A DNA stretch of 64,000 nucleotides from an uncultured Oscillibacter sp. (GTDB lineage: Bacteria; Bacillota; Clostridia; Oscillospirales; Oscillospiraceae): NCBI GenBank assembly GCA_945868085.1, contig CAMBKF010000004.1, forward strand, positions 1 through 64,000. The letters run 5' to 3'. Below the pieces are notes generated by a model. The model ran no database searches. It saw only the letters and a program-made list of their open reading frames with translations, and was not told the origin of the DNA. Of the stretch, positions 960 through 20,023 are shown in pieces. How positions within the stretch are numbered: the stretch's first letter is position 1; each line of letters starts with the position of its first letter. The position numbers were made by a program, and so were the translations under genes.

Positions 960-2579
960 ATGACATCCCCGGTGAAGAATCAAGTTTATACCGCCGAAAT
1001 TCTGGGCTACTCCACCGAGGGCCTGGGCATTGCCCGCATCGACGGGCAGGTGGTGTTCGTCCACGACGCCATAGCGGGCGAGGTGTGCGACATCCTCATT
1101 ATGAAGGTGCTGAAAAACGCCGCCTTCGGCAAGGCGGTGGCATGGAAAACCGTCTCCCCCCACCGCCGGGAGCCGGACTGCCCCTACTACCGCCAATGCG
1201 GCGGCTGCGCCTTCCGCCACATGGACTACGCCGAGGAGCTGCGGGCCAAGGGCCAGCGGGTGCAGGATGCCCTGACCCGCCTGGGCGGCAGCGGCGTGAC
1301 GGTGGAGGATGTCCTGGGAGCGGCGGAGCCGCTGCACTACCGCAACAAGAGCCAGTATCCTGTGTCCGCGGACGGCAGGGTAGGCTTTTACCGGGCACGG
1401 ACCCACCAGGTGACGGACCTTTCCGCCTGTCTCATTCAAAAGCCCCAGGCGGACGCGGCGGCCGGGGCTCTGCGGCGCTACATGGCCGAGCACCATGTGC
1501 CGGGGTATGACGAGAACACCGGCAAGGGGCTGGTGCGGCACCTGTATGTGCGCACCAACGCCAAGGGGCAGGCCCTCATCTGCGTGGTGATAAACGGCGA
1601 AAGTCTCCCCCGGGAGGACGCGCTGGTGGCGGCTATGCGCCAGGCGATGCAGTCGACCGTGGGCGTGGTGCTGAACGTCAACACCCGGCGCAGCAACGTG
1701 ATCCTGGGCGACCGATACCGGACGCTATGGGGCGAGGACACCCTGACAGACACCCTGTGCGGGCACAGCTTCCGGCTGTCCATCCCCGCCTTTTACCAGG
1801 TGAACCGGGACCAGGCGGAGGTGCTGTACCGCAAGGCGGTGGAGTACGCGGGCCTCACAGGGACAGAGCTGGTGCTGGACCTGTACTGCGGGGCCGGGAC
1901 CATTACCCTGACCATGGCGGACCGGGCAAAAAAGGTCATCGGCGCGGAGATCGTCGCCCCGGCGGTAGAAAACGCACGGGAGAACGCCGTGGCAAGCGGC
2001 ATAGAGAACGTGGAATTTTTCTGCGGCGATGCCGGGGACGTTGCGGCCAGGCTGGCGGCGGAAAAGCTGCGTCCGGAGGTCATCTGCGTGGATCCGCCCC
2101 GGAAGGGCCTGGCCCCGGAGGTCATCGACGCCATGGCGCAGATGGGGCCGGAGCGCATTGTGTACGTCTCCTGCGACCCGGCCACCCTGGGCCGGGATGT
2201 GAAGCTGCTGGCCCAGCGGGGCTATGCCGCCCGGCGGGCCGCGGCGGTGGATCTGTTCCCGGGGACGGCCCATGTGGAGACGGTGGTCCTCTTGTCACGG
2301 GAAACAAATCCACTGACGGTTGAAGTCAGAATGGAAGTGGAAACCGGCGAGGTCAAGGAGCATCCGACCTATAAGCGTATTCAGGAATATGTGCAGGAGA
2401 AGTACGGCTTCAAAGTCCATACTGCATATATTGCCGAGGTCAAGCGTATGGTCGGACTGGATATGCACAAAGCGCCGAACGCAGTGGAGCAGAGAAAACA
2501 TGAGTATCATCCCTGCCCGCCTGAAAAGGTTGAGGCGATCAAAGATGCGCTGCGGCATTTTGGCTTAATTGCTGAGTGA
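960..2579 (+). CDS. rlmD: 23S rRNA (uracil-5-)-methyltransferase with element-derived C-terminal tail
   Basis: RlmD/RumA family enzyme that methylates C5 of a 23S rRNA uridine using SAM. It has an N-terminal TRAM domain (about residues 5-60), an iron-sulfur cluster set C74, C80, C83 and C157, the SAM motif DLYCGAGT (307-314), and the catalytic SCDPATLGRD loop with nucleophile C405. The family normally ends near VETVVLLSR (439-447 here). In this gene the frame continues for about 92 further residues of lower-GC sequence ending in ALRHFGLIAE. This tail is not part of the methyltransferase fold and coincides with the left end of the integrated element. The enzyme core looks intact and is probably active. 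Start ATG follows AAGGAACG. Confidence 0.93.
   Translation: MTSPVKNQVYTAEILGYSTEGLGIARIDGQVVFVHDAIAGEVCDILIMKVLKNAAFGKAVAWKTVSPHRREPDCPYYRQCGGCAFRHMDYAEELRAKGQRVQDALTRLGGSGVTVEDVLGAAEPLHYRNKSQYPVSADGRVGFYRARTHQVTDLSACLIQKPQADAAAGALRRYMAEHHVPGYDENTGKGLVRHLYVRTNAKGQALICVVINGESLPREDALVAAMRQAMQSTVGVVLNVNTRRSNVILGDRYRTLWGEDTLTDTLCGHSFRLSIPAFYQVNRDQAEVLYRKAVEYAGLTGTELVLDLYCGAGTITLTMADRAKKVIGAEIVAPAVENARENAVASGIENVEFFCGDAGDVAARLAAEKLRPEVICVDPPRKGLAPEVIDAMAQMGPERIVYVSCDPATLGRDVKLLAQRGYAARRAAAVDLFPGTAHVETVVLLSRETNPLTVEVRMEVETGEVKEHPTYKRIQEYVQEKYGFKVHTAYIAEVKRMVGLDMHKAPNAVEQRKHEYHPCPPEKVEAIKDALRHFGLIAE
2274..2300 (+). other. left attachment site (attL) of the integrated element
   Basis: These codons encode VETVVLLSR at the natural end of RlmD. 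The same motif (VETVVLMSR) is encoded at 21701-21727 at the end of the serine recombinase. Both copies share TGTCA near the likely crossover. Composition drops in GC just after this point. The 3' end of rlmD/rumA is a known insertion site for clostridial and streptococcal conjugative elements. The exact crossover dinucleotide is not determined. Confidence 0.7.
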
Positions 2580-3519: not shown

Positions 3520-4056
3520 GTGGTCCATGCCGATACAGAGTACACCATAGAGGAACAGGGCGTTAAGCGGACAATCCCGCTGAAAGCAAATCAGGTTCTT
3601 TTGGATTTGAGCTTTATTCAGCCTGGACAGGTTCATGCTTTGTGCGGGAAGCGCAGATTTACCCTTGCCCATGAATGCGCTCATCAAATCCTGTTCGGGA
3701 TGGAAAGCGACAATGATAAGAGAACGCACGAAAGCAAATATGCCCCCAGAGCGGCATATTCGCTCCGTGATCTCAAGACCCGCGAGGATTGGAATGAATG
3801 GCAAGCTAATGTGTTAGGCGCTGCCATTCTGATGCCCCAAAAGGAAATCGACATTGCCATGAGGCAATTTGCCCGTGGCCGTGTCCTCAGGAACTACGAG
3901 GGGAGGTTTAATTATATTGATTGTTTATCCCTGACTCTGCTGTGCCAGTCTCTTGGAGTTTCCAAGTCCGCAGCCATTATCCGGCTGAGACAACTCGGCT
4001 ACATCGAGGACCGCCCCTTTGCGGAGTATGACGATCCGTTGGAGGTGTGGTTGTGA
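3520..4056 (+). CDS. ImmA/IrrE-family metallopeptidase, probably N-terminally truncated
   Basis: The zinc peptidase core is clear: FTLAHECAHQILF carries HExxH, and the helical C-terminal part (NEWQANVLGAAILMP ... AAIIRLRQLGYI) is typical of ImmA/IrrE proteins of mobile elements. Such proteins cleave element repressors to induce transfer. The family usually has about 60-80 more N-terminal residues; here the start is in the middle of the expected N-domain, and no ribosome site precedes it. The next gene (zinc ribbon) overlaps its stop codon, a typical backbone arrangement. Because the N-terminus is missing, activity is doubtful; it may be a pseudogene. Confidence 0.7.
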   Translation: MVHADTEYTIEEQGVKRTIPLKANQVLLDLSFIQPGQVHALCGKRRFTLAHECAHQILFGMESDNDKRTHESKYAPRAAYSLRDLKTREDWNEWQANVLGAAILMPQKEIDIAMRQFARGRVLRNYEGRFNYIDCLSLTLLCQSLGVSKSAAIIRLRQLGYIEDRPFAEYDDPLEVWL

Positions 4057-5014: not shown

Positions 5015-5179
5015 GGGGCAAACAACAGCCTCCTTCGCGGTTCCTTGACAACTGAATAGTCAGTGCTGCGGATCTTTCCTCTTTTCTCGAAGCGACTTGT
5101 CTTCTGCCGCCATGACCTCCAACCGGAGCGAGCGATCAACAGAGAGGCTAAACAGCCGTGTGGTGCGGCTGCTTGCGAT

Positions 5180-5467
5180 GATGGAGAAGTTGGGTACGGT
5201 AAAGGCATCATCAATAATGCAAAAACGAAGATCCTGCTCAATCTGGAGGAAGAGGAAGCACGCCGGGTTCAGTCCATCCTGCATCTGTCTGAGGCAGAGG
5301 TCATGGAGATCACCCACTTTGAACGGGGCAACGGCCTGATCAGCACCAATAACAACAATGTGACGGTGGAGATCAAGTGCAGCCAGATGGAAAAAGACCT
5401 TATCACCACAGACCGGCGCGAATTGCAGGAATTGTTGTCGCAGAGTGATGGCGTGGATATCGCTTGA
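5180..5467 (+). pseudogene. C-terminal fragment of a VirB4-like conjugation ATPase
   Basis: The frame from about 5196 reads GYGKGIINNAKTKILLNLEEEEA and then ITHFERGNGLIS, NNVTVEIK and LITTDRRELQELL. This resembles the tail of VirB4-like (CD1110-type) ATPases of clostridial conjugative elements. The ATPase core with Walker motifs is absent. Upstream in the same frame the sequence is unrelated, so a deletion joined foreign sequence near 5190. It marks the lost transfer module. Assignment is from remembered family sequence and not certain. Confidence 0.55.
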
Positions 5468-5509
5468 TCCTAATACGCACAGAGTACGACTTTAATACGC
5501 ATAAACGAT

Positions 5510-5887
5510 TGCAATATCTATGAGCTTTCCAATGCTTTTTTGCGGCAGGATGATATCGTTCTACTTGAAAAAAAGGATTATCTTGCCAATCCGAAACGCA
5601 ATGGATACCGCAGTCTTCATTTGATCATTCAGATCCCCATCTACTTACATAGTGAAAAGAAAATGATGAAGGTCGAGGTGCAGTTTCGCACGATCTCGAT
5701 GGATTGGTGGGCAAGTCTGGAGCATAAGATCCGCTATAAAAAGGACGTGGAAGTCCCCCTGCATATTGCAAAAGAACTGCGCGAATGCGCAGAAGAAGCC
5801 GCCTTGTTGGATTATCGAATGGAGAATATTCAAAAAAATCTCGGTACTTACCTAAAGCCAGACACACAGACACCAGAACAACGATGA
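5510..5887 (+). pseudogene. small alarmone synthetase (RelQ-like) fragment, N-terminus missing
   Basis: The frame matches the second half of RelA/SpoT-type (p)ppGpp synthetases: NPKRNGYRSLHLI, VEVQFRTISMDWWASLEHKIRYKK, and a helical tail. In the family the first half supplies the nucleotide-binding part (around 90 residues); here similarity begins only near IYELSNAFLRQDD at about 5513 and no start codon with a ribosome site is seen. It is therefore a remnant and likely inactive. It flanks the left edge of the stress cargo. 5888-6102 holds only a terminator. Confidence 0.75.
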
Positions 5888-6019
5888 CCTGTTGAACAAG
5901 CCAATTAGGCGATTCCATAAAACGATCATCAGACCTCCCAATGAAAACGGTATAGCCACCTACACGTTTTTGCGAAAAAACGCATGGCTAAAGAAATCAA
6001 ATACTATAGCAAATCAAAT

Positions 6020-6050
6020 GTCCCGCCCTTGATCATTTCAAGGACGGGAC
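6020..6050. terminator. terminator hairpin 3' of the LysR gene
   Basis: A 13-bp stem with one mismatch (GTCCCGCCCTTGA / TCAAGGACGGGAC) and a 5-nt loop is followed on the plus strand by CCTATTTTA. It lies between the convergent relQ-like remnant and the LysR gene and could serve both. Confidence 0.65.
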
Positions 6051-6102
6051 CCTATTTTATGTTCCGTTCATTTGTGCGAGTCTTTGGTTAGGACGTAAAT
6101 CC

Positions 6103-6984
6103 TCATACAGCATAGGCTTTTTGTGTGAGGCTAACAAAAGCTTTCAAGGTGTCGTCTCGATCTTGTTCGTTATAAAAGAGCCCGAAGGTCAGTTCTGGAA
6201 CCCCCGACAGTCGATACAAGGCCAGATCATCACAGTTATGGGCATAGATTTCTGGAACCAGGGCAAGACCATATCCAGCACGCGCCAGGGTAATCGCACC
6301 GGCAACGGAATCGGAGAAATGAATGTTGCTTCGGTTTCGATTCCTGATCAGTTCCATTTGCAGGCTCAAAACTTCCGATGACAAGAAAACCGGGTCATGA
6401 ATGATTATGGCTTGCTGTGAAAGCTGTTCGGCAGAAAGACTCTGTTCCGGCTCTTTATAGAGTCCCGGTTTTCCGAGACAGACAATGCTTGTTTTGCAAA
6501 GCGGAGCAAAAACCATATGTTCTCGCTTGGGAATAATATCCTGAAAACTGAATGCCACACGTACGGAATCGTTGTCCAACATGTGAAATAGCCTTTCATG
6601 GGTTGCAACAAACAGTTTTGGATGCAGGTTCGGATGGTGGTTTGCCAGTTCTGCCAGAATTGGCACCATATCCGAAAAAAGAGTGTGGCTGCCAGTTCCG
6701 ATGGACAATAGTTCAAAGGAGTGGCCCTTCGGATCTCCAAAACGCATCTTCGCCTGTTGCTCTGTTTCTATCATTTTCTGCGCATAAGAAATAAACGCCT
6801 GCCCATCCAATGTCAATTCAACCAGCCGGGTGGATCGCCTGAACAACTTTGTGTTCAGTTCGTTTTCCAGTGTCTGTATCTGATGGGTGATGGCAGGTTG
6901 AGACACACTCATTTGCTCTGCGGCACGTGCAAAGCTCAGCGAATTGGCTACGGCCAGAAAGCATTGAATCTGAAATGTGTTCAT
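6103..6984 (-). CDS. LysR-family transcriptional regulator
   Basis: This 293-residue protein has the standard length and layout: an N-terminal winged helix-turn-helix (MNTFQIQCFLAVANSLSFARAAEQMSVSQPAITHQIQTLE) and a periplasmic-binding-like effector domain. The start is supported by AAGGAGGAGGGCT. It is divergent from the hsp20-groESL operon with a 215-bp AT-rich intergenic region, so it may act on that operon, on itself, or on cargo genes further away. LysR members usually sense a small metabolite; which one is not evident. Its presence beside a CIRCE-controlled operon suggests a second layer of control. Confidence 0.9.
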   Translation of the reverse strand: MNTFQIQCFLAVANSLSFARAAEQMSVSQPAITHQIQTLENELNTKLFRRSTRLVELTLDGQAFISYAQKMIETEQQAKMRFGDPKGHSFELLSIGTGSHTLFSDMVPILAELANHHPNLHPKLFVATHERLFHMLDNDSVRVAFSFQDIIPKREHMVFAPLCKTSIVCLGKPGLYKEPEQSLSAEQLSQQAIIIHDPVFLSSEVLSLQMELIRNRNRSNIHFSDSVAGAITLARAGYGLALVPEIYAHNCDDLALYRLSGVPELTFGLFYNEQDRDDTLKAFVSLTQKAYAV

Positions 6985-7109
6985 AGCCCTCCTCCTTCAA
7001 AAGAAATGACTGCGCTATCAAATATAACATAGAAACCAGTTCACAACAAGACGATTTCAATTATTTAATAAATTATTTTTATTATAAATAATAAACTTGA
7101 TACAATAAT

Positions 7110-7136
7110 TTAGCACTCACCCATTGCGAGTGCTAA
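7110..7136 (+). promoter_or_regulatory. CIRCE operator (HrcA site)
   Basis: TTAGCACTC, nine bases, GAGTGCTAA: an exact match to the CIRCE consensus bound by the heat-shock repressor HrcA. It lies 64 bp upstream of hsp20. No hrcA gene is in the window, so control would depend on the host repressor. Confidence 0.95.
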
Positions 7137-7151
7137 AAATGGTGGTATAAT
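7124..7151 (+). promoter_or_regulatory. promoter of hsp20-groES-groEL
   Basis: TTGCGA, 16 bp, TATAAT. The -35 box overlaps the right arm of CIRCE, so HrcA binding would block RNA polymerase. The start codon of hsp20 lies 49 bp after the -10 box. Confidence 0.75.
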
Positions 7152-7199
7152 AGGAACATCAAAACAGATCGCCTATAGCGACCGGAAGGAGTCTTATCT

Positions 7200-7619
7200 A
7201 TGTTAACACCGTACACCCTCGCAAGAAGCATGTTTGAAGAACTCGCCGATTCCGCTTTTGGAAATCACAACAGTTCCGGGCTTATGCGAACCGATATCCG
7301 CGAGACAGAAACCCGATACGAGGTTGCCATTGATCTTGCCGGTATCAAAAAAGAGAACCTGACCATTGAACTGAAGAACGGCAACCTTGTCATCAGCGCC
7401 ATCGTCGAACAGGATCCCGTTCCCGAAGGAGAAAAATTCAGATACCTTCGCCGTGAGCGCTTCGTCGGTACCATGCAGAGAAGCTTCTATGTCGGCGAAA
7501 AGGTTCGCCAGGAGGACATCCATGCAAAGTATGAAAACGGCACCCTGTATCTGATCATCCAGAAGGAAATTCCCGTACCTCAGATCGAATCTCGAAACCT
7601 GATCGCAATCGAAGATTAA
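7200..7619 (+). CDS. hsp20: small heat-shock protein, Hsp20/alpha-crystallin family
   Basis: This 139-residue ATP-independent holdase binds unfolding proteins in the cytoplasm. The alpha-crystallin domain covers about residues 32-120 (DIRETETRYEVAIDLAGIKKENLTIEL ... ENGTLYLIIQKE), with a short IPV-containing C-terminal extension that could serve as the oligomer-anchoring tail. The start follows GGAAGGAGTCTTATCT. It is first in an operon with groES (38 bp away) and groEL, under a CIRCE promoter. Coupling hsp20 to groESL in one operon is less usual than separate control and suggests a dedicated protein-rescue set. Confidence 0.94.
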   Translation: MLTPYTLARSMFEELADSAFGNHNSSGLMRTDIRETETRYEVAIDLAGIKKENLTIELKNGNLVISAIVEQDPVPEGEKFRYLRRERFVGTMQRSFYVGEKVRQEDIHAKYENGTLYLIIQKEIPVPQIESRNLIAIED

Positions 7620-7657
7620 CATGAATCCGTTAAAACCAAGATAGGAGGCAATCACAC

Positions 7658-7930
7658 ATGACTATTAACCCTTTGGCTGACCGCGTTGTTGTCCAGTACG
7701 CCAAGCCGGAAGAGAAAACGCAGGGAGGGATCATCCTTACCGCTTCAACACAGGAAAAACCCCAGGTCGCGACTGTGACCGCTGTTGGCCCCGGCAAGAA
7801 TGGCGAACCCGTTTCTGTCAAGGTTGGCGATCAGGTTCTGGTAGGCAAGTATGCCGGAACTGAGATCAAAGTTGGCGATGAAGAGTACACCATCGTCAAC
7901 GCAGGCGATATTCTGGCAATCATTGAGTAA
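7658..7930 (+). CDS. groES: co-chaperonin GroES
   Basis: 90 residues, slightly shorter than the usual 94-97. It has the N-terminal PLADRVVV strand, the mobile loop KTQGGIIL that contacts GroEL, and the C-terminal GDILAII. GroES caps the GroEL chamber during ATP-driven folding in the cytoplasm. The ribosome site is AGGAGG before ATCACACATG. It lies 26 bp before groEL. Since almost every bacterium has a chromosomal groESL, this is probably a second, element-borne copy. Confidence 0.95.
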   Translation: MTINPLADRVVVQYAKPEEKTQGGIILTASTQEKPQVATVTAVGPGKNGEPVSVKVGDQVLVGKYAGTEIKVGDEEYTIVNAGDILAIIE

Positions 7931-7944
7931 TAACAGAGACGTAA

Positions 7945-9582
<1,638 letters not shown>

Positions 9583-9669
9583 TCCCAAGCCCTCTTGTCT
9601 CCCGTCTGTAGTGATTATGATACCATTCTCTTGCCATAGAGTATCGTCTTCTACTGCCATTCTGGGAAC

Positions 9670-9704
9670 AGCCGGAGCAGCTCCTTGCTGCTCCGGCTAT
9701 TTTG
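9670..9704 (+). terminator. terminator after groEL
   Basis: Perfect 12-bp stem AGCCGGAGCAGC / GCTGCTCCGGCT with a 5-nt loop, followed by ATTTTG. It separates groEL from the small gene at 9723, which may be expressed by read-through. Confidence 0.75.
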
Positions 9705-9722
9705 ATAAACAGAGGTGATCTC

Positions 9723-10001
9723 GTGAGGATTGAATATAACAAAGATACTCCGCATTTTAGTTCGGAGGAGCTTCGGGAAATCTACCGGAACACAGAAGAA
9801 AAAACATCGAAGGCACTCCGCCAAACGGCCCATCGCTTGTACCCGGGAAGAGACTCCGTTACCTACGAAAATCTTTTTATCCGAGAAGGTTATGCCAGAG
9901 CTTACATGCATAAAGGAGAGTACCGCAAGCCCAAATGGACGATCACAGCATGGCCGCTGATGTTAGGCGTTATGGATGACGACACAATATATGATAGCTG
10001 A
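9723..10001 (+). CDS. hypothetical small protein downstream of groEL
   Basis: 92 residues, basic and hydrophilic, with no membrane segment and no motif that I recognise. I took the GTG at 9723 because GAGGTGATCTC precedes it; the frame also runs upstream to a TTG at 9702 inside the terminator tail. It ends in WPLMLGVMDDDTIYDS. It lies 140 bp after groEL, beyond a terminator and before another strong hairpin, so it belongs to the same transcription block and is a candidate accessory factor of the chaperone cargo. Function unknown. Confidence 0.55.
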   Translation: MRIEYNKDTPHFSSEELREIYRNTEEKTSKALRQTAHRLYPGRDSVTYENLFIREGYARAYMHKGEYRKPKWTITAWPLMLGVMDDDTIYDS

Positions 10002-10058
10002 ACTCATCCATTGTGATTTACCATCATAACTGCAAGATATTCTATATCTTGGGCATTG

Positions 10059-10095
10059 AAGAAGCACCCTGTTCACAGTGAACAGGGTGCTTCTT
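10059..10095. terminator. strong bidirectional hairpin
   Basis: A near-perfect 17-bp stem (AAGAAGCACCCTGTTCAC / GAACAGGGTGCTTCTT) with a 3-nt loop ends the rightward block. Another small inverted repeat (AAGATAT/ATATCTT) lies at 10034-10050. No gene is seen between 10002 and 10233. Confidence 0.7.
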
Positions 10096-10233
10096 GATGT
10101 ATTCGTTTTATAAGTTGATTTTGATCCCTACACAAGTTTGTTGTGGATGGCAATTGTATCAGTGCCATGCTTAAACGGAGAATATAGTAATCGGGGGGTT
10201 AGATTCCAATGACAGAATCAACAGGCATTGACA

Positions 10234-10458
10234 TTACAACACCTTCCGCTTTACTGCGCATACCGCATCCATAATTTTCAATGGTATTGTTCCAGTTTCT
10301 ACATCAAAGCCGATAAAGCTTATGTCAGCGCCCCCAGCGGCTTCCCCTTTTGCCAAATCTACAACTCTGGTGTCTTCGGGAGGAAGCATGGACGCAATCG
10401 TTTCCGCAAGTATCGTTGCGTTGCCGGACTTGCTTAAATAACTGATTTCATATTTCAA
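10234..10458 (-). pseudogene. flavodoxin-family N-terminal fragment
   Basis: The frame begins with a flavodoxin-like FMN phosphate loop (MKYEISYLSKSGNATILAETI) and a second strand (ADISFIGFDVETGTIPLKIMDAV), but stops after 74 residues, while such flavodoxins need about 150. AAGGACTC precedes the start. The reading frame ends abruptly in VKRKVL, so the gene is broken or truncated by rearrangement and can not form a full FMN fold. It lies between the chaperonin block and the leftward transporter operon. Confidence 0.6.
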
Positions 10459-10525
10459 TTTGAGTCCTTCTTTCTATCATCTAAAAATCCTTCGGGACAA
10501 CAGCCCGTGTACATAAGATAAAAGA

Positions 10526-10642
10526 CAGACCGGCAAAGCGAATCCGCTCCACCGGTCTGCTATGCTCGAATAAAGCACGCGGCATATGTAATAGGGAGGG
10601 ATATGGCAACGTATCAAAAGAGGGTTTTATACGCGTGCTTTA
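10526..10642 (-). terminator. paired hairpins 3' of the symporter gene
   Basis: An 11-bp inverted repeat (TAAAGCACGCG at 10571-10581 and CGCGTGCTTTA at 10632-10642) is followed, in the leftward direction, by a CAGACCGG/CCGGTCTG hairpin (10526-10559). They lie just after the symporter stop codon and probably end the leftward operon. Confidence 0.5.
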
Positions 10643-10666
10643 CAGAACACCGCTGCTTAAACTACT

Positions 10667-12112
10667 TTATAACTGCGGTGCGCTCTCCAGATACACCGAC
10701 GGTTGCTTCTTGCAGGTGATAAGGCTTACGCAAATCAGAGCAACCGCACAGGCGATCGTACCGGGCAATGCCGCTCCCAAACCGAACGGCTGCCCCAGCA
10801 ATTTCCAACCAACGCACACCACGAAACCACCGATCATTCCCGCGATGATACCGGACTTTGTTGCCTTCTTCCAATAGAGTGCCGCGAATGCAGGAATGCC
10901 GGCAGCAGCCGCATAGAAGGACCAGGAGAACATCAAAATGTTATAGGCGTTCTGCATATAGAGGGCAATGATAAGTGCACCGATGGGAAGGATAATCGAG
11001 AAGATTCTGGACAACTTCATTTCGGTCTTTTCGTGCATTTCCGGCTTTACTGTCTTTCCGATATCCCGAACACAGGTCTGGACTGAAACCAGCAGATAGC
11101 TGTCAGCGGTAGACATCATAACGGACAGCATACCGGCAAGGGCAAGTCCGGTGAGACCCGCAGGCAGCACTTTAATTGCCAAGGCGGGAACAGCAGCATC
11201 GGTCGTGCCATATTGAGCCAGAATGTCATCGCCTACGATCTGGTGTGCTACAATTCCCATAAAAAACACAAGAATGATCGTTACACCATAGACAGCCGTT
11301 CCAAGGAACATTCCTTTTTTAGCGGATTTCCGGTCTTTTGCCGAAAAGGCACGCTGCCACATCTCAGCACCGGCCATGGTGAATACCAGATAGGTTACGA
11401 TGTCGCCTACAATGTTACCGTCAATATAAGGCTTTACCAAACTCGAATCCAGGTTGGCAGTGAAATTGGAAAAGCCTCCCACATGGATCAGGGACGATGT
11501 TGGTATCAGGATGTAGACAAAAATGAGGAGCATAAAGAATTGCAGCACATCCGTATAAACAACACCGAACAAACCGGACGTTGCCGTATAGACCATAAAG
11601 ACGATGCAGGCTATAACGGCACCAATTTCATAGGACAGTCCGATCTCACCACCAAGCATATTGATGATCGTTCCAGTTGCTGTAATTTGGGATGCCACGG
11701 TTCCCATCATTGTGAAGGCGATAAGTGCGGAAATGATCAGCTTGGCGGTTTTTCCGAAGCGCATTTCAAACAGTTCAGGAATAGAGCCGATGTTATATTT
11801 CATGCCAATGTCGGAGATTTTTCCTGCAATGCCGGAGAAAATAAACATTCCCAGCAAATACGGGATCGCGGTCATAATGGCCTTAAAACCACTGGAATAC
11901 GCAACACCTGCCCGCCCCATCAATCCGCTGCCGCCGATGATTGTGGCGCAGACAGTTGCCATCAGCACAATCGGCCCAAAGGATCGTCCTGCCAGATAGT
12001 AGTCATCACTATTCTTGATCTTTTTCGATGTGATGACGCCAACAACAACCATAACAACAAGGTAGATGCCGACAATAGCGAGGTCTAATCCGGTTATTTG
12101 CTCGTGATTCAT
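10667..12112 (-). CDS. sodium:solute symporter (SSS family)
   Basis: This 481-residue integral membrane protein has the SSS layout with about 13 predicted membrane segments. Visible features are the N-terminal SDDYYLAGRSFGP motif, the G-rich TIIGGSGLMGRAG segment, and the LAGMLSVMMSTADSYLL signature containing the Na+-site Ser/Thr pair typical of the family. It would import an organic solute with Na+. Substrate cannot be fixed; proline, pantothenate and sugar carriers share the fold. The start is preceded by AAGGAGATTTTT. It follows htpG by 44 bp on the same strand, so it is probably co-transcribed. If it imports a compatible solute it would fit a stress-tolerance cargo, but that is speculation. 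Confidence 0.88.
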   Translation of the reverse strand: MNHEQITGLDLAIVGIYLVVMVVVGVITSKKIKNSDDYYLAGRSFGPIVLMATVCATIIGGSGLMGRAGVAYSSGFKAIMTAIPYLLGMFIFSGIAGKISDIGMKYNIGSIPELFEMRFGKTAKLIISALIAFTMMGTVASQITATGTIINMLGGEIGLSYEIGAVIACIVFMVYTATSGLFGVVYTDVLQFFMLLIFVYILIPTSSLIHVGGFSNFTANLDSSLVKPYIDGNIVGDIVTYLVFTMAGAEMWQRAFSAKDRKSAKKGMFLGTAVYGVTIILVFFMGIVAHQIVGDDILAQYGTTDAAVPALAIKVLPAGLTGLALAGMLSVMMSTADSYLLVSVQTCVRDIGKTVKPEMHEKTEMKLSRIFSIILPIGALIIALYMQNAYNILMFSWSFYAAAAGIPAFAALYWKKATKSGIIAGMIGGFVVCVGWKLLGQPFGLGAALPGTIACAVALICVSLITCKKQPSVYLESAPQL

Positions 12113-12156
12113 AAAAATCTCCTTTCACATTGATTTGAACTGGTACTGATTCAATT

Positions 12157-14049
12157 TTAGAGCATCAGGCTGCACACAAGGTCGCTGATCTCGGCAGGGT
12201 TGTCAAGCGGTACACCGCTGACAAGGCGAGCCTGTGCCAAGAGAATTTTGCTGTATGTAGCAAGCTTATCCTTGTCAGATTCAAACAACTCCTTGATTCT
12301 TGCAGCCAGAGGATGATCGATATTGATCTCCAATACGATTTCAGCTTTAATATGATGCTCTTCCGCTCCCGGCATTTTATTCAATGCTTTTTCCATGCCA
12401 AGAGAGACATTGCCTTCACTCGAAAGGCTGACGGGATGATTGCCCAGGGTGTTTGTAAACTGAACCTTGGATACGTCGTCCCCTAGGCTTTCCTTCATAA
12501 ACTTCAAGAGTTCTTCAGCCGCCTCGTTTTCGGCTTTGAGCGTTTCCTTTTCCTCATCCGTGGAGAGGTCAAGATTTTCTTCGCACACATTGAGAAATTC
12601 CTTTTCGGAGTATGTGCGGAGCATCTGCAAGGTAAATTCGTCAATATCCTCAGTCAGATACAGCACCTCATAGCCATGGGCAATTACCGATTCGACCTGC
12701 GGCAGGAGAGCAATCTTTTCCACGGTGTCTCCGGAAGCAAAATAGATCTTTCCCTGACCCTCTTTCATACGGGATACATACTCATGGAGCGTTACATAGT
12801 TGCCTTCATCAGAAGATCTAAAGAGGAGAATATCCTGAAGCATATCTTTATTGGAGCCATAGCTGGAGTAGATCCCCCATTTGAGTTGTGCACCGAAGGC
12901 CTTAAAGAACTGCTCGTATTTCTCGCGTTCGTTTTCCAGCATCTTTTTCAACTCGCTGGCAATTTTCTTTTCAAGCGCCTTGGCAATGATGCGAAGTTGA
13001 CGATCCTGCTGCAGCATCTCACGTGAAATATTGAGCGACAAATCGGAACTGTCAACCAAGCCCCTTACGAAGCTGAAATGATCGGGCAACAGATCCTTGC
13101 ATTTTTCCATTATTAGTACGCCGCTGGAGTAGAGTTGCAGCCCCTTTTCAAAATCCTTGCTGTAGTAGTCATAGGGGGCATGAGCAGGAATAAACATCAG
13201 CGCTTCAAAGGTAGAGGTGCCTTCCGCCTTTTGACGAATCACCTTGAGAGGCGCTTCATAATCGTAATATTTGTCCTGATAGAACTGCGCGTATTCTTCG
13301 TCACTCACCTCAGAAGCAGGTTTTTTCCAAAGAGGAACCATACTGTTGAGCGTTTCATCTTCTGTTACGGTTTCATATTCATCCTCGCTGCCGTCTTTCA
13401 GTTGGCTATGCTCGGTAAGCATACGGATCGGATAACGGATATAGTCGCTGTATTTTTTAATCAGGCTGCGAAGGTGATATTCCTCCAAGTAGTCGCTGTA
13501 TCTTTCATCATCGGTGTCAGGTTTGAGATAAATTGTAATGACCGTACCGGCAGTTTCTTTTTCGCAGGGAGTGATGGTGTACCCATCTGCACCCTCGGAC
13601 TCCCAGCAGAACGCCTCATCGACTCCGTACACACGGCTCTCAACAGTAATTTTTTCTGCTACCATAAATGCGGAATAGAATCCGACACCGAACTGACCGA
13701 TAATGTCAACTTGCTCACCATTCTTGTGCTCGGGATCATTTTTAAAATCAAAGGAACCGCTCTTGGCAATGGTGCCGAGATTATTTTCCAGTTCTTCTTT
13801 GGACATGCCGCAGCCGTTATCCGCAACAGTCAGAGTGCGAGCGGCCTTATCTGCTGTCAGACGAATTTCATAATCATCGTGAACCAACTTCACGGTATCG
13901 TCTGTCAGAGAACGATAATAGAGCTTATCAATGGCATCACTTGCATTTGAGATCAGCTCGCGCAGGAAAATTTCTTTATGGGTATAGATAGAATTGACCA
14001 TCATATCCAACAACTTTTTGGATTCCGTTTTGAATTGCTTCTTTGCCAT
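12157..14049 (-). CDS. htpG: molecular chaperone HtpG (Hsp90)
   Basis: 630 residues, full length for bacterial Hsp90. The N-terminal GHKL ATPase carries ELISNASDAIDKL (catalytic Glu and Asn), DNGCGMSKEEL and GQFGVGFYSAFMV. The middle domain has SLNISREMLQQD with the ATP-contacting Arg. The C-terminal dimerisation domain is present. It remodels late-stage folding clients in the cytoplasm using ATP. The ribosome site is weak (AAAAGAGTTAATTTTT). It lies 21 bp downstream of an HdeD-like membrane protein gene and upstream of a symporter, forming a leftward operon whose first gene carries a MarR-type operator. Confidence 0.96.
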   Translation of the reverse strand: MAKKQFKTESKKLLDMMVNSIYTHKEIFLRELISNASDAIDKLYYRSLTDDTVKLVHDDYEIRLTADKAARTLTVADNGCGMSKEELENNLGTIAKSGSFDFKNDPEHKNGEQVDIIGQFGVGFYSAFMVAEKITVESRVYGVDEAFCWESEGADGYTITPCEKETAGTVITIYLKPDTDDERYSDYLEEYHLRSLIKKYSDYIRYPIRMLTEHSQLKDGSEDEYETVTEDETLNSMVPLWKKPASEVSDEEYAQFYQDKYYDYEAPLKVIRQKAEGTSTFEALMFIPAHAPYDYYSKDFEKGLQLYSSGVLIMEKCKDLLPDHFSFVRGLVDSSDLSLNISREMLQQDRQLRIIAKALEKKIASELKKMLENEREKYEQFFKAFGAQLKWGIYSSYGSNKDMLQDILLFRSSDEGNYVTLHEYVSRMKEGQGKIYFASGDTVEKIALLPQVESVIAHGYEVLYLTEDIDEFTLQMLRTYSEKEFLNVCEENLDLSTDEEKETLKAENEAAEELLKFMKESLGDDVSKVQFTNTLGNHPVSLSSEGNVSLGMEKALNKMPGAEEHHIKAEIVLEINIDHPLAARIKELFESDKDKLATYSKILLAQARLVSGVPLDNPAEISDLVCSLML

Positions 14050-14070
14050 AAAAATTAACTCTTTTATTTT

Positions 14071-14682
14071 TTAATTTTCAATTATACAGTTGTTTTTCTG
14101 TTGTTTAAGCAATTTTGCATCCTGCAGAATACGCCAGCCAACCAACAGCAACTCGACGCCGAGCAAAAAGATATGGTGCTGTAAAGCTGCCGGGGCATCA
14201 ATCAACAGCAGAATGCCTAATAGCAGTTCAACGAGAGCTCGTATCAGCTTTTTTCCAAAGGGTTTCTTCAGGTATGCCTTATGAAGAGCACTGTTAAGTT
14301 CCTCTGAGCCTTTCAACACACCTAAAATACCCCAGAGCGCCCCGATGATATGGTCGGAGTTCTTTCTGTGGTACAGAATAGCGAAGCCAAGAATAATATA
14401 TACGATCCCGTTGGCAAGAACCTTGGTTTCTTCCGACGCATACTCGCGTGTTTTGATGCCGCGGAAAATATCAAAGCTTCCCGCAAACAGGAGAAAACTG
14501 CTCGCTATATAGGGGAATATCTCATATATTTGTTCCGGCCAAAAGAGAAGCAGGCTGCCAATTCCTGCAAAAATCATTGCAGCTATGCAGCCGTTTTTTA
14601 CCGAAGAAAGCTGGTACGTCTTCTTTGTGTGTGCGCTTGGAGTTGGCGCTCTTTCCATCAGTCTTTCAAAAATTTCACTCAC
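14071..14682 (-). CDS. HdeD/DUF308-like membrane protein
   Basis: This 203-residue protein has about six hydrophobic segments in pairs (GCIAAMIFAGIGSLLLFWP, IFPYIASSFLLFAGSFDIF, GIVYIILGFAILY, ALVELLLGILLLIDAP, IFLLGVELLLVGWRIL), the pattern of HdeD/DUF308 proteins. HdeD is linked to acid resistance in enterobacteria, and an HdeD-like protein is also carried by the proteobacterial transmissible locus of stress tolerance. It is 21 bp before htpG on the same strand. A MarR-like operator (14694-14708) lies 12 bp upstream of its start codon. The family assignment rests on topology and is moderately sure. Confidence 0.7.
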   Translation of the reverse strand: MSEIFERLMERAPTPSAHTKKTYQLSSVKNGCIAAMIFAGIGSLLLFWPEQIYEIFPYIASSFLLFAGSFDIFRGIKTREYASEETKVLANGIVYIILGFAILYHRKNSDHIIGALWGILGVLKGSEELNSALHKAYLKKPFGKKLIRALVELLLGILLLIDAPAALQHHIFLLGVELLLVGWRILQDAKLLKQQKNNCIIEN

Positions 14683-14693
14683 GCCCCTAATTC

Positions 14694-14708
14694 GCTAACT
14701 TTGTTAGT
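14694..14708. promoter_or_regulatory. MarR-type operator before the HdeD-like/htpG unit
   Basis: GCTAAC-TTT-GTTAGT is nearly identical to the operator before marR (GCTAAC-AAT-GTTAGC at 15204-15218). It lies just upstream of the HdeD-like start, suggesting that the MarR protein represses this unit too. Confidence 0.65.
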
Positions 14709-14720
14709 TAAATGCGTATT

Positions 14721-14751
14721 ATGAAAACGATAGCGGTACTATCGTTTTCAT
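14721..14751. terminator. 13-bp perfect inverted repeat after marR
   Basis: ATGAAAACGATAG, loop CGGTA, CTATCGTTTTCAT. It lies just after the marR stop on the minus strand and ends in TTTTCAT, so it could be a modest terminator or attenuator between marR and the HdeD-like gene. Confidence 0.55.
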
Positions 14752-14757
14752 TCAGGT

Positions 14758-15186
14758 TTACTTTCTAATTTCTGAGCAGTTCTGGCAAATCTTCTCCTGA
14801 ATTCTGATATATTCCTTTGCGTCATCTACTCCAAGATTTTCGAGCATACGGGTAGTGTGTTCCAGAACTTTCTTGCGGATATGGTCGATCTCAGATGCAC
14901 CTTGCTCCGTCATCCGCACCACAACCTGTCTGGAGTCATTTGCGTCTGTAAAACGAACGATCGTCCCCTGTTCCTCCATGTGCTTGAGCAATCTGGCGAT
15001 ACGAGCTGTGCTCACCGCCAATTTCTCACTTAATTCCTTCGGATGAACAACACCGTCATGCTCCTTCAAGTAGTTTAACACAAACATCTCTCCCCTCATC
15101 AGTTTGGAGATCTCCTTATGAGCGGGAACCTGAAGCATTTTTACACGCAAATTCAGCAGTTGATAAGCAAGCGACTCGTAGTACAT
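14758..15186 (-). CDS. MarR-family transcriptional regulator
   Basis: 142 residues with the family's winged helix: VLNYLKEHDGVVHPKELSEKLAVSTARIARLLKHMEEQGTIVRFTDANDSRQVVVRMTEQG contains the recognition helix and the wing. Flanking helices would form the dimer interface. The C-terminus has two Cys (QEKICQNCSE), possible redox or metal sensors. Its own promoter (TTGACA, 17 bp, TATAAT) has a palindromic operator immediately downstream, the classical autorepression layout. A matching operator lies before the HdeD-like/htpG unit. It is therefore a likely local repressor of part of the stress cargo. Confidence 0.9.
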   Translation of the reverse strand: MYYESLAYQLLNLRVKMLQVPAHKEISKLMRGEMFVLNYLKEHDGVVHPKELSEKLAVSTARIARLLKHMEEQGTIVRFTDANDSRQVVVRMTEQGASEIDHIRKKVLEHTTRMLENLGVDDAKEYIRIQEKICQNCSEIRK

Positions 15187-15203
15187 AATCTTTCACCTCT
15201 TTA

Positions 15204-15256
15204 GCTAACAATGTTAGCATTAATCTTATTATATATTCCGAACACTGAGGTGTCAA
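15204..15256 (-). promoter_or_regulatory. marR promoter and operator
   Basis: On the minus strand TTGACA (15251-15256), 17 bp, TATAAT (15228-15233): a consensus promoter. The palindrome GCTAAC-AAT-GTTAGC (15204-15218) sits between the -10 box and the marR start, suited to repression by MarR. Confidence 0.85.
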
Positions 15257-15374
15257 GCTATTCTTTATATTCCTGTATTGCTGATGCGATGCACTAAGCT
15301 ATCACTATGTCCCGGCATTACGCGCTGTAAAAGCCACGGACTTTTGATAACCCATGGCTCTCTTGAACAGCTAA

Positions 15375-15995
15375 TTACTGAATTACAATGCTTTTTATCA
15401 CAGGCTGCTCTTCAGCGGCAATGGAGCCATTGTTGTCCGAAGGTCCCGCATCCGCACAGATAGCATCTACTACATCCATTCCCTCCGTCACATAGCCAAA
15501 GCAAGCATAACTTCCATCCAGATAAGTGCTGTCCTCATGGACGATGAAGAACTGGGAACTCGCACTGTCGTAATCATTTGAACGAGCCATGGAAATGGCA
15601 CCACGGGTACGGGACAAATTGTTTTCCACACCGTTATTGTTGAATTCACCCTTGATAGTCTGTTCGCTGCCACCGGTACCGTCTCCGTCTGGATCTCCAC
15701 CTTGGATCATAAAACCATCCATAATACGATGGAAGGTCAAACCGTCATAAAATCCCTCATTTGCCAGCGCTACGAAGTTCTCAACGGTTTTCGGAGCTGT
15801 TTCAGCATCCAACTCCACTGTGATCGAACCATAGTCTGCCACATCAATGATGGCGGTATAAGCAACAGAAGGTTCTTCTGACTTCACCGGGACCTCCTGC
15901 TTTTCCTTGCCAGCTTCATACTCCTGTGAACAGCCGGAGATTGCTATTGTCAGGCAGGCGGCAAGAACAACCGATAAGCATTTCTTTTGTCTCAG
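15375..15995 (-). CDS. cyclophilin-type peptidyl-prolyl isomerase lipoprotein, start codon lost
   Basis: The C-terminal 165 residues are a cyclophilin: FHRIMDGFMIQGGDP (active-site Arg and Phe), GAISMARSNDYDSASSQFFI and DGSYACFGYVTEGMDVVD. It is preceded by a lipoprotein signal peptide (CLSVVLAACLTIAISGC, lipobox ISGC), so it would act outside the membrane on proline peptide bonds of secreted proteins. The expected MKK start is replaced: the frame upstream reads HIQLRQKK and then runs into a dam-like gene fragment with no ATG or GTG and no ribosome site. A rearrangement near 16066 removed the start, so expression is doubtful. Confidence 0.75.
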   Translation of the reverse strand: MRQKKCLSVVLAACLTIAISGCSQEYEAGKEKQEVPVKSEEPSVAYTAIIDVADYGSITVELDAETAPKTVENFVALANEGFYDGLTFHRIMDGFMIQGGDPDGDGTGGSEQTIKGEFNNNGVENNLSRTRGAISMARSNDYDSASSQFFIVHEDSTYLDGSYACFGYVTEGMDVVDAICADAGPSDNNGSIAAEEQPVIKSIVIQ

Positions 15996-16065
15996 TTGTA
16001 TATGTAAGTGAAAGGGGTGCAGAGAGCTTGATCGATCAATACATAAGGCAATATGGAAAACGACT

Positions 16066-16263
16066 GTAAGTATCAATTAGATCTGCATTGATATCTGACA
16101 AATAAGCGTGTTTCGGTGGAGTGAGCGAGAAGAAAACAGCTGCGCCGCCAAGAAAAGGTTCATAGTAATTCTTGTATTTCAAATCCTGCGTCAGCTGTTT
16201 CATAAAGGGGACAAGCCATGTTTTCCCTCCTGCCCAGCGGATAAACGGTTCTATGTGTGACAT
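16066..16263 (-). pseudogene. DNA adenine methylase (Dam) N-terminal fragment
   Basis: The first 67 or so residues match Dam-type N6-adenine methyltransferases: FIRWAGGK (the SAM-binding FxGGK), YYEPFLGGAAVFF, and AYLSDINADLIDTY. The target-recognition domain and the catalytic DPPY motif are missing; after LIDTY the frame changes to unrelated sequence at the cyclophilin junction. It is a broken restriction-modification or phage-type methylase marking the right edge of the stress cargo. 16264-16616 has no gene that I can support. Confidence 0.8.
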
Positions 16264-16616
16264 GAGTTCACCTCATTTGGATTAACTTTCTTGTAGTTGT
16301 TATAGCCTCAATTATTGTCTGTCGAATAGACGATTTAAGAAGAGTTGTAAGCCAAGGGGTTAGTGCGCCCATTCGCACCCTTGAGGTGGAATACACCCCA
16401 TTATTTCGAGTCGTTCTCGTTATGACCACTTCGATACGTCTCCGTATTTATCTCAACATCAGCACCTCAGAAAACGGGGAGAACTGATGGGGAGAACAAA
16501 GAAAAATATTCAGTTAAAGATACCCGAAAAACCCCGTAAAATCAAGGGTTTCCGGTCAGGGAGCTACCGGATAGCGACCACGATTTCGAGTCAGAGTCGC
16601 TGATATAATCTGCGGC

Positions 16617-17189: not shown

Positions 17190-17519
17190 ATGCCAGACCG
17201 CACAAGACCCATCCGTAAGGAAATCTGCCTGAATGAGCAGGAATTGAGCGTGGTTCGCCACAAGATGAACCAACTCGGCACCCGCAACTTCGGCGCGTAT
17301 GCCCGGAAAATGCTGATTGACGGGTACATCATCAAGGTCGATTACACCGAGCAGAAAAAGTTAGCTGCCGCTGTCAGCAGGATTGCCACAAACATCAACC
17401 ACGTCTGCCGCCGCATCAACAGCACCGGGCATTTCTACGATGCCGACGTTGCCGAGCTGAAAGAACGGATGGCTGACGTATGGGAACTGCTGAAAGTGCA
17501 GCAGAGAAACGAATTGTAA
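17190..17519 (+). CDS. mobC: MobC-family relaxosome accessory protein
   Basis: 109 residues. The N-terminal part resembles a ribbon-helix-helix DNA-binding fold (KEICLNEQELSVVRHKMNQLGTRNFGAYARKMLIDGYI), followed by the MobC helix (LAAAVSRIATNINHVCRRINSTGHFYDADVAELKERMADVWELL). It would bind oriT and assist a relaxase in nicking. A strong ribosome site (AAAGGAG) precedes it, within a leader that carries the 17-bp repeat shared with 4998. The relaxase gene that normally follows is absent, so mobilisation would need a relaxase in trans. Confidence 0.85.
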   Translation: MPDRTRPIRKEICLNEQELSVVRHKMNQLGTRNFGAYARKMLIDGYIIKVDYTEQKKLAAAVSRIATNINHVCRRINSTGHFYDADVAELKERMADVWELLKVQQRNEL

Positions 17520-17832: not shown

Positions 17833-18495
17833 TTGCCGCAATTTATGGTAGTCAGCGAACATTCCATCAACGCCAAACTGCTGTATGCCCTCCTGCTGAA
17901 CCGCACGATGCTTTCGCAAAAATCGGGGTGGGTATCAGAGGACGGAAATGTGTATGTCATCTACACAATCAAGCAGATGGCGAATGACCTGAATCGGAGC
18001 GAAAGAACGGTAAAAACTGCCTTGTGCGAACTGGAAAATGCCGGGCTGCTGACTCGCGTCCGACAGGGCTTGACCAAGGCAAACAGGCTGTTTCTGCAAA
18101 TACCCGATGGGGTACAGCTTTCTTCCCCTCTGATGGGCAAAGGCTGCCTTTCAGAAGTGCAGAAAACCGCCCCTCTTGATGGGCAGAAATTGCCCACAAG
18201 TAATACTGATACAGAATATAAAGAACATAGTAAGACCAAAAGAGTAGAGAGTACGCGCCGCCGATATGGAGAGTTTCAAAATGTTTTTCTGTCAGGCGAG
18301 GAATGTACCCGGCTGGAAACGGCTTATCCCGGTAAAGCCGCCGAATACATTGAGCGGCTGTCCCGGTACATGGCTTCCAATGACAGGCACTATGCCAATC
18401 ATTACGCCACCATCAAGAAGTGGTTGGACGAGGACAGCAAGGGCAGGAGCGCGAAAAACTACACCTACGACGATAACGAGGGAGAGTGTCTATGA
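17833..18495 (+). CDS. RepA-like replication initiator, start region apparently frameshifted
   Basis: The product has a winged-helix replication-initiator domain (NAKLLYALLLNRTMLSQKSGWV ... YTIKQMANDLNRSERTVKTALCELENAGLLTRVR) and a variable C-terminus. Related proteins begin with a short strand like YIKIDTSLPPF; that strand is encoded here just upstream (from about 17791) in the same frame, but a stop codon and lack of a start separate it from the good ribosome site and ATG at 17784. Removing one C in CGCC near 17788 would join them, so a one-base insertion is likely. Translation could still begin at TTG 17833 or ATG 17848. The stop codon overlaps the next gene. Confidence 0.75.
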   Translation: MPQFMVVSEHSINAKLLYALLLNRTMLSQKSGWVSEDGNVYVIYTIKQMANDLNRSERTVKTALCELENAGLLTRVRQGLTKANRLFLQIPDGVQLSSPLMGKGCLSEVQKTAPLDGQKLPTSNTDTEYKEHSKTKRVESTRRRYGEFQNVFLSGEECTRLETAYPGKAAEYIERLSRYMASNDRHYANHYATIKKWLDEDSKGRSAKNYTYDDNEGECL

Positions 18496-19337
18496 ATCCG
18501 ATTTTTACGAAAATGGTTGATGCCGTTGAAGCGGCTAATGCCGCACCTGACGATTACATCAATCCCGCCGATGGGCTGAAATACTGCGGCAAGTGCCACA
18601 CGCCGAAAGAAGCCTTTTATCCCGCAGACCTTCAGGCACAGGGCTTTACCAAGCACCCGGTTATGTGCAAGTGCGCTGCCGAACGCCGAGAACGGGAAGA
18701 ATCCGAACGCCGGGAATGTGAGCGAATGTCCTACATGACGATGCTCCGCAGCGAAGCGTTCCGTGATATGCCCGCCGCTGGCTGGCGGTTTGAGTCAGCC
18801 GCAGTTCCGACACCTCAACTTGCAAAGGCGAGGGGCTACGCGCAGAACTGGGACGAGTTCAAAAAAGCGGGAATCGGGCTGCTCCTGTTCGGGAACGTTG
18901 GCACAGGAAAATCCTTTGCCGCTGGCTGTATTGCCAACGCTCTGATTGACCGTCTGGAGTCTGTCCTCTTTGTGGGAATGTCTGATGTAGTCAACCGTAT
19001 GCAGGGCAATTTCGGTGCGGATCGCGACCATTACATGAAATCGCTTATGCGCCCCGACCTCCTCATTCTGGATGATTTAGGGGCAGAGCGTAACACCAGT
19101 TTCGGCAAGGAGCGAGTATTCGATGTGGTTGACAAGCGGCTGCTGACAGGCAAGCCCATGATCGTCACGACCAATATTCCGCTTTCCGTTATGAAGCAAG
19201 CCGCCGATCTGGATGACCGCCGCATTTTTGACCGCATCTTGGAAGTCTGCGTCCCGATTCGCTTCGACGGAGAGAATTTCCGTAAGGACAACGCCAGCGC
19301 AAATGTCAAAAAAGCCGCAAAACTGCTGAATGGGTAA
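18492..19337 (+). CDS. DnaC-like AAA+ ATPase (helicase loader type)
   Basis: 281 residues. It has an N-terminal Cys-rich part (CGKCHTPKEAFYP ... MCKCAAE, possible zinc site), then an AAA+ core with Walker A GNVGTGKS, Walker B LLILDDLG and a sensor-type VTTNIP. It resembles DnaC/IstB loaders found next to RepA-like initiators in integrative elements, and would load the replicative helicase at the element origin. The start ATG overlaps the repA stop (ATGA), with GGGAGAG upstream, so the two are translationally coupled. Confidence 0.85.
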   Translation: MNPIFTKMVDAVEAANAAPDDYINPADGLKYCGKCHTPKEAFYPADLQAQGFTKHPVMCKCAAERREREESERRECERMSYMTMLRSEAFRDMPAAGWRFESAAVPTPQLAKARGYAQNWDEFKKAGIGLLLFGNVGTGKSFAAGCIANALIDRLESVLFVGMSDVVNRMQGNFGADRDHYMKSLMRPDLLILDDLGAERNTSFGKERVFDVVDKRLLTGKPMIVTTNIPLSVMKQAADLDDRRIFDRILEVCVPIRFDGENFRKDNASANVKKAAKLLNG

Positions 19338-19979: not shown

Positions 19980-20002
19980 CCGGGCGGTCATTGACCGCCC
20001 GG
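19980..20002 (+). other. hairpin before the recombinase gene
   Basis: An 11-bp near-perfect palindrome (CCGGGCGGTCA / TGACCGCCCGG) lies 22 bp upstream of the recombinase start with no U-tract. It may limit read-through or translation, or be bound by a regulator. Confidence 0.5.
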
Positions 20003-20023
20003 CTCTGTAACAGGAGGGAATCT

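Follow-up and report, generated by a model that had tools for sequence, protein, structure and literature searches.

A 19-kb element in rlmD with a second hsp20-groES-groEL operon, htpG and other candidate protein quality control genes in an uncultured Oscillibacter sp.

Results

A block of chaperone genes lies inside an element next to rlmD

The DNA analysed here, called the window, comprises the first 64,000 nucleotides of contig CAMBKF010000004.1 (contig C4) in assembly GCA_945868085.1, from an uncultured Oscillibacter sp., and contains a block of chaperone genes within an integrated element. The block begins at about 5500, at a relQ fragment, and ends at about 16030, at a cyclophilin gene. 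Domains were called on the open reading frames (ORFs) of the window with the curated cut-offs of Pfam and with NCBIfam models. A first-pass annotation, made by a model from the letters alone, had named Hsp20, GroES, GroEL, HtpG, an HdeD-like protein, a cyclophilin, LysR and MarR regulators and a symporter, and Pfam recovers all of them where it had placed them; the relQ-like and dam fragments that it saw at the edges also hold up. G+C content is 65% in the host DNA on the left, 50% in the left part of the element, 47% in the block and 61% beyond 23.5 kb. The features of the element are as follows.

960..2579, +: rlmD (rumA), RlmD-type methyltransferase domains; C-terminal part, from about codon 440, element-supplied
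2271..2300, +: predicted left attachment site, core GAGAC at 2277-2281
3520..4056, +: protein with IrrE/ImmA-like peptidase domain, left backbone (PF06114)
5063..5467, +: VirB4-like C-terminal fragment (NF045971 positions 679-735 of 752, E 2.4e-5, below cut-off)
5540..5887, +: relQ/YjbM fragment without its N-terminal half (PF04607 50-111 of 113; NF053588 94-192 of 201, below that model's cut-off)
6103..6984, -: LysR regulator (PF00126, PF03466)
7110..7136, +: perfect controlling inverted repeat of chaperone expression (CIRCE; the HrcA operator), TTAGCACTC-N9-GAGTGCTAA, 0 mismatches, before hsp20-groESL
7200..7619, +: hsp20 (PF00011)
7658..7930, +: groES (PF00166)
7957..9582, +: groEL (PF00118; TIGR02348 819 bits, cut-off 582)
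9702..10001, +: ORF of 99 amino acids, no Pfam or NCBIfam match
10234..10458, -: flavodoxin N-terminal fragment (PF12641 positions 2-56 of 160, below cut-off)
10667..12112, -: sodium:solute symporter (PF00474, SSF)
12157..14049, -: htpG, Hsp90 (PF00183; NF003555)
14071..14682, -: DUF308/HdeD-like membrane protein (PF03729, 33.2 bits, cut-off 25)
14695..14707: putative MarR operator, copy 1, CTAAC-N3-GTTAG, before hdeD
14758..15186, -: marR (PF12802, PF01047)
15205..15217: putative MarR operator, copy 2, before marR
15375..16076, -: cyclophilin (PF00160), frame listed from TTG
16036..16263, -: N-terminal stub of dam, D12 methylase (PF02086 1-59 of 253)
17190..17519, +: MobC/NikA-like relaxosome protein (PF21983, PF05713)
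17833..18495, +: RepA_N replication protein (PF06970)
18486..19337, +: DnaC/IstB-like ATPase (PF01695; NF005992)
19991..21739, +: large serine recombinase (PF00239, PF07508, PF13408)
21704-21708, +: core GAGAC of the predicted right attachment site, in the 3' end of the recombinase gene

The chaperone frames are intact, and GroEL (541 amino acids) and HtpG (630 amino acids) have the lengths of most of the closest relatives listed. The membrane protein passes the DUF308 cut-off and falls far under that of the NCBIfam HdeD model (25.8 of 189 bits), and the N-terminus of the cyclophilin looks lipoprotein-like by eye. When compared to the models for the bilirubin operon, the flavodoxin piece reaches 30.5 of 155 bits and MarR 51.5 of 125, and no BilS/BilQ identity is claimed for them.

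Alignments of rlmD with nine same-genus genomes break off at window 2269-2313. The 30 bases at 2271 return at the 3' end of the recombinase gene at 21698, where 20/30 are the same and the longest exact run is the 5-bp GAGAC; the forward strand of the window has no equally good place elsewhere, and the two GAGAC cores lie about 19.4 kb apart. By its sequence this is a 19-kb element that has inserted into the 3' end of rlmD and has a serine recombinase gene at its far end. The rlmD alignment ends, the shared GAGAC repeat and the element end found in Oscillibacter sp. ER4 (described below) agree with the first-pass annotation in placing the block inside an element bounded by rlmD and a serine recombinase. 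The VirB4-like fragment at 5063-5467 is likely the remnant of a conjugation module. In another genome of the genus, G370 (L219), rlmD stops soon after the core, and the letters behind it look like the final codons of the C-terminus that the element supplies; by eye, this looks like the trace of an element lost by deletion.

Excerpts from PMC4701971 describe integrative and conjugative elements (ICEs) and decayed ICEs in rumA/rlmD that have a single serine integrase, one repeat in rumA and the other in the integrase gene, exchanged 3' ends and a direct repeat of 2-21 bp, and CTn5 of C. difficile is placed in rumA in an excerpt from PMC4320837. As far as these excerpts go, the element resembles rumA ICEs and decayed ICEs in its target gene, in the attachment site within the serine integrase gene and in the hybrid RumA C-terminus, whereas it differs from them in its chaperone cargo and in a conjugation module down to a VirB4-like fragment and MobC.

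About half of the element is nearly identical in a second genus

Hsp20 was searched against 84,980 species genomes, and 80 of 86 relatives were kept. One of these, in Oscillibacter sp. ER4, is 100% identical, and the remaining kept relatives are at 59% or below (the 59% being one partial match). Over the 7,954 bases of window 4400-12353, one ER4 contig departs from the window at 3. ER4 belongs to another genus, its rlmD and resident groEL showing 68% and 83.2% DNA identity to those of the window genome, and because the shared stretch differs so much less than these two genes do, the element must have passed between genera recently. From 2271 onward the window is 99.6% identical to ER4, as against 68% for rlmD: at this left end 1,174/1,179 bases are the same, followed by 240 bases to the contig end at 99.2%, and the differences fall at 2273, 2276 and 2285, with two more up to 3449.

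The left end stands on a second ER4 contig, in the order rlmD, a type III restriction element with its own serine recombinase, then the left end of the window element. Past the break in htpG, the ER4 block contig continues with a recombinase fragment carrying a zinc-ribbon domain and then the left end of yet another element, which is 86.8% identical to the left end in the window. This layout, together with the second left end on the block contig, makes a tandem array of serine-recombinase elements at rlmD likely in ER4/G210 (L214, L216), with type III restriction genes in the first of them.

Among 400 genomes of the family, the complete 2,531-bp hsp20-groESL operon is found in two, the window's own and G210, which represents another genus and whose match coordinates equal those of ER4; of the 6,451 bases that make up the second half, all are present in 1/400 and 2,764 in G210 (all counts among the matches listed). 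The matches listed for the order sample (389 scored of 394) and the class sample (391) add no other genome with the block, in searches whose E-value limits of 1e-250 and 1e-200 put single short genes out of reach. In a set of 5.8 billion proteins, 41 contigs are listed for a GroEL about 100% identical (P0252), which suggests that there are further carriers.

The block lies where sibling elements carry restriction-modification genes

The backbone of the element finds matches in 14 genomes including the window's, and the slot beside it was read in G032, G126 and G119, not in G272. G032 shares 96-98% identity with the backbone at 16583-19285 and G126 shares 89-94%; for G119 the figure is 91-94%, over the first 0.9 kb of it. 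Adjoining the backbone is a type III restriction-modification pair in both G032 and G126, and in G119 a type I system; at this point the window has dam, cut off after 75 codons, followed by the chaperone block. The dam stub is likely a remnant of the element's modification gene slot. Because three siblings have restriction-modification genes at this position, the most economical explanation, which we consider likely, has the block taking the place of the modification slot and of most conjugation genes in an older ICE. The comparison bears out the suggestion of the first-pass annotation that the cargo had been put into an existing element.

Resident copies and the ancestry of the cargo

The genome holds resident copies of groEL on C11 (C11:39393), of htpG on C25 and of hsp20 on C45, so those in the window are not the only ones. 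Relative to the resident proteins, GroEL of the window is 84% identical, GroES 57%, HtpG 52% and Hsp20 29% over 122 residues (L098 and L099 left out of this comparison). Nor is the cluster syntenic in relatives lacking the element: among the genomes examined, only the window's and ER4/G210 have it. On both points the first-pass view of an extra, element-borne set of genes stands.

We further compared the chaperonin proteins with 29 residents (L001, L095, L100-L126). GroEL of the window is 77.6-87.1% identical to these residents, which share 78.3-100% among themselves. GroES is 50-61% identical to the residents, themselves at 71-100%, in a comparison that leaves out L099, and is without four residues present in 29/29 resident GroES. 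Several solved GroES structures also gap at this spot in the alignment, which we take to be the roof loop.

In a 62-row tree, the window GroEL falls in a 13-row clade (100/100) together with that of ER4 and database proteins without a name. Its sister is a clade containing Dysosmobacter-named GroEL sequences (100/98), and the resident same-genus (Vescimonas) GroEL sequences are placed elsewhere. The nearest genomes for GroEL, at 79-81% in DNA, are of the same family. The 24-row HtpG tree, from which four of 15 chosen loci were dropped (L148, L150, L154, L156) and in which the genome's own resident HtpG is a long branch, joins the window HtpG to five unnamed proteins and to a partial sequence whose genome belongs to another family (100/98), far from the HtpG of its own family. 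Its nearest genome is G1044, from another family of the class, at 80% over 790 bases. Because the ancestries of GroEL and HtpG differ, the block looks composite and likely comes from at least two sources. A single-donor origin was rejected, as the matches listed for the family, order and class samples, the last two under the E-value limits given above, include no collinear block besides those of the window and, in the family sample, ER4/G210; one unsampled donor, itself a recipient of htpG, may still have been the source.

Relatives of Hsp20 and GroEL at 78-94% share the same longest-contig size in four cases (8123, 20679, 8408 and 8467), and the hsp20-groESL unit has therefore apparently been kept together for long, which suggests that the hsp20-groEL pair is an old unit. 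It is not a common operon by our count: among the 80 Hsp20 loci, some of them short, only that of ER4 has groES/groEL in the surrounding DNA examined (E<=1e-10).

Viral and plasmid origins of the cargo were considered and rejected. A search of IMG/VR with Hsp20 returned one relative at 55%, with no groEL match in the DNA examined, and phage matches amounted to two, both to the backbone, of 47 and 41 bases. Six plasmid records match in the groEL region and nowhere else; HtpG matches on 310 plasmid records, mostly from rhizobia, stay below 60%, and plasmids gave no HdeD-like match. On an IMG/VR contig classed as viral (L013), an Hsp20 gene at 9884-10366 stands between genes that look phage-replication-like by eye.

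Around htpG genes elsewhere, L257 (G1044) and L254 (G1113) have a marR-like gene, slightly under the Pfam cut-off in G1044, and a citrate synthase, called by Pfam in G1113 and by eye in G1044. G1044 also has an intact flavodoxin near htpG, to be compared with the flavodoxin fragment near the window htpG.

The element operon carries a host-type HrcA operator

The perfect CIRCE stands out from the window, in which the mean expected by chance is 0.01 at up to 3 mismatches; neither this site nor the VirB4-like fragment is named in the first-pass annotation. It overlaps a promoter-like TTGCGA-16-TATAAT (7124-7151), in a region (5400-16400) where promoter-like sites are not above chance (18 found vs 14.6 expected). 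The host genome contains four CIRCE sites, each with 0 mismatches (reversed-pattern control 0), which precede hrcA, groESL, hsp20 and the hsp20-groESL operon of the element. Resident HrcA scores 173 bits against a PF01628 cut-off of 22.2, and its gene adjoins grpE-dnaK by eye. Six same-genus genomes without a cargo-level match have 2-3 CIRCE sites at up to 2 mismatches, and G210 has four, including that of the cargo, at the same limit. Between the two genera, the CIRCE of the element has changed by one base, in the spacer only.

A second candidate control site is the palindrome CTAAC-N3-GTTAG, with two matches in the window and 0 in 100 shuffles. The copy before marR closely follows a 12/12 consensus promoter (15256-15228, - strand), and the pair are likely MarR operators. 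From the CIRCE site, the hrcA gene and the paired palindrome, we infer control of the block by HrcA and MarR.

Right flank

Between the element and the host flank, a stretch at 22157-23462 (+ strand) of about 35% G+C encodes a SocA/Panacea-domain protein and then an ORF of uncertain family with a weak DUF4271 match. At 23527-26054 (- strand), an Amidase_2 protein adjoins a 543-amino-acid protein in which MatE domains are fused to a complete Phage_holin_4_1 domain; the arrangement resembles a phage lysis-cassette remnant inside a MATE gene.

Discussion

A mobile, extra and intact hsp20-groESL operon with a host-type operator is common to two genera, and its combination with an intact htpG, an HdeD-like protein, MarR and a cyclophilin is found in one genome only. 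We posit that the 19-kb rlmD element, with its second HrcA-operator hsp20-groES-groEL, htpG, HdeD-like and cyclophilin genes, is a transferable, stress-induced booster of protein quality control, and give this reading a probability of roughly 0.6. HrcA and CIRCE form the heat-shock regulon of Gram-positive bacteria, and HrcA is active while GroEL is free; here, one operon of that regulon sits on a mobile element. Host HrcA would repress the hsp20-groESL operon of the element until misfolded protein occupied GroEL, whereupon HrcA would release it. MarR may likewise repress marR-hdeD-htpG via the palindrome until its ligand arrives. The extra chaperones would then raise tolerance to heat, acid, bile or oxygen. 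Since the element has a recombinase and MobC and the scan found neither relaxase nor mating apparatus, it would move with help from another conjugative element.

A number of observations weigh against this proposal. The source genome is a draft, of 1.96 Mb in 60 contigs and 84.5% complete. The relQ, flavodoxin, dam and virB4 fragments are signs of erosion. The attachment core is short and imperfect, and blastn of the rlmD 3' end against the window detected no repeat. In V. fastidiosa the DNA of the right flank (22-46 kb) is dispersed and does not adjoin rlmD, so that it offers no empty site for comparison on that side. No relaxase, coupling protein, or type IV secretion system (T4SS) or mating-pore genes were found in the scanned ORFs, where MobC and the VirB4-like fragment are the only conjugation-type genes; self-transfer is unlikely for this reason, and the element is more likely decayed or mobilizable. 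In ER4, the join between the rlmD contig and the block contig, across a gap of about 0.7 kb, is itself deduced; htpG is reduced to residues 567-630, and hdeD, marR and the cyclophilin gene are absent from the block contig. The missing genes are therefore either dispensable or the block is decaying there, and the full gene set is known from one genome only. The first-pass picture of a transmissible, full proteostasis set thus survives in part: the element has reached another genus, and the set is complete in the window genome, but the element would be mobilizable or decayed, and ER4 has a truncated htpG.

These signs of decay give weight to a serious rival, if a rather unlikely one in our estimation: that fragments of donor chromosomes were caught by chance in a decaying element and spread with it, the chaperones bringing no benefit and heading for loss. 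It would account for the truncated genes within the block and at its borders (relQ, flavodoxin and dam), for the loss in ER4 of most of htpG and everything beyond, and for an operon present in so few family genomes. However, hsp20, groES and groEL are intact in both genera, CIRCE is perfect with a change in its spacer only, the near-identical GroEL P0252 recurs on its 41 contigs, and the four coinciding contig sizes among Hsp20/GroEL relatives speak for a unit seemingly long maintained. An improbable alternative is selfish use, in which the GroESL of the element would serve the element and not host protection, for instance in the folding of element proteins or in holding HrcA in its active state and dampening the response of the host. 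Phages bring their own co-chaperonins, and the GroES of the window, with its low identity to all 29 residents and its four missing residues, is the kind of outlier that this would predict; the GroEL is nevertheless ordinary, its identity to the same residents being unremarkable, and Hsp20, HtpG and the cyclophilin have no obvious element-specific role. We regard as very improbable an assembly or binning artefact, in which the contig would join the rlmD of the host (Vescimonas) to an element from a different organism. The draft state of the genome, the near identity of ER4 and the window over 8 kb and the lack of synteny of the right flank with V. fastidiosa would fit it, but ER4 is a separate record, not titled a metagenome-assembled genome, that has the same left end behind its own rlmD, the window element extends 9 kb past the content of the ER4 block contig, and the near-identical GroEL is listed on many contigs.

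The first-pass annotation had likened the locus to the proteobacterial transmissible locus of stress tolerance (tLST). With the tLST it has in common Hsp20 (PF00011) and the setting of a mobile island that adds chaperone copies to those of the core genome. A further, weaker likeness is a protein of the DUF308/HdeD kind, which is over the cut-off for DUF308 and far below it for the HdeD equivalog. In contrast to the tLST, the scanned ORFs of the block contain no ClpG/ClpK, FtsH, YfdX, KefB or DegP; nor is thioredoxin, another tLST component, among them. In their place are GroES, GroEL, HtpG and a cyclophilin, under an HrcA/CIRCE site and in Gram-positive anaerobes, and the tLST paper used for comparison makes no mention of GroEL. 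Membership of the tLST was rejected, since ClpK, FtsH, YfdX and KefB were not found among the scanned ORFs, and beyond Hsp20 and the weakly HdeD-like protein the proposed analogy does not carry. A 9.7-kb contig (L258, G759), from a different family within the class, brings together hsp20, marR, ftsH, a short ORF and htpG at 2828-8394, an arrangement of Hsp20 with FtsH that recalls the tLST, here in Clostridia.

A bolder version of our proposal, which we hold only tentatively and with more doubt than belief, would make the locus an anaerobe Gram-positive counterpart of the tLST. This would be a class of integrative elements with a composite chaperone island in the restriction-modification slot and a dedicated, long-separate hsp20-groES-groEL lineage, whose shortened GroES would cap a client-specialised chaperonin, and which, plugged into the HrcA circuit of each new host, would confer stress tolerance at once. 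Another extra protein quality control gene in Gram-positive bacteria is ClpL of Listeria, which is located on a plasmid. Excerpts from PMC11006417 link this disaggregase to heat resistance; going by them, ClpL and the window block are both extra protein quality control genes, ClpL being an AAA+ disaggregase and not GroESL/HtpG. In the open-access literature (titles and beginnings of abstracts, with subscription papers outside the scope), there is apparently no paper on GroESL/HtpG as cargo of such elements.

If the block works as predicted, a single transfer could equip gut anaerobes with stress tolerance, meaning survival of heat, acid, oxygen or bile and hence passage between hosts. Chaperonin genes would then count as accessory cargo too, and the perfect CIRCE would represent a mobile element borrowing a conserved host repressor for correct regulation in new hosts. 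Carriers and non-carriers form a natural contrast, which makes the prediction directly testable.

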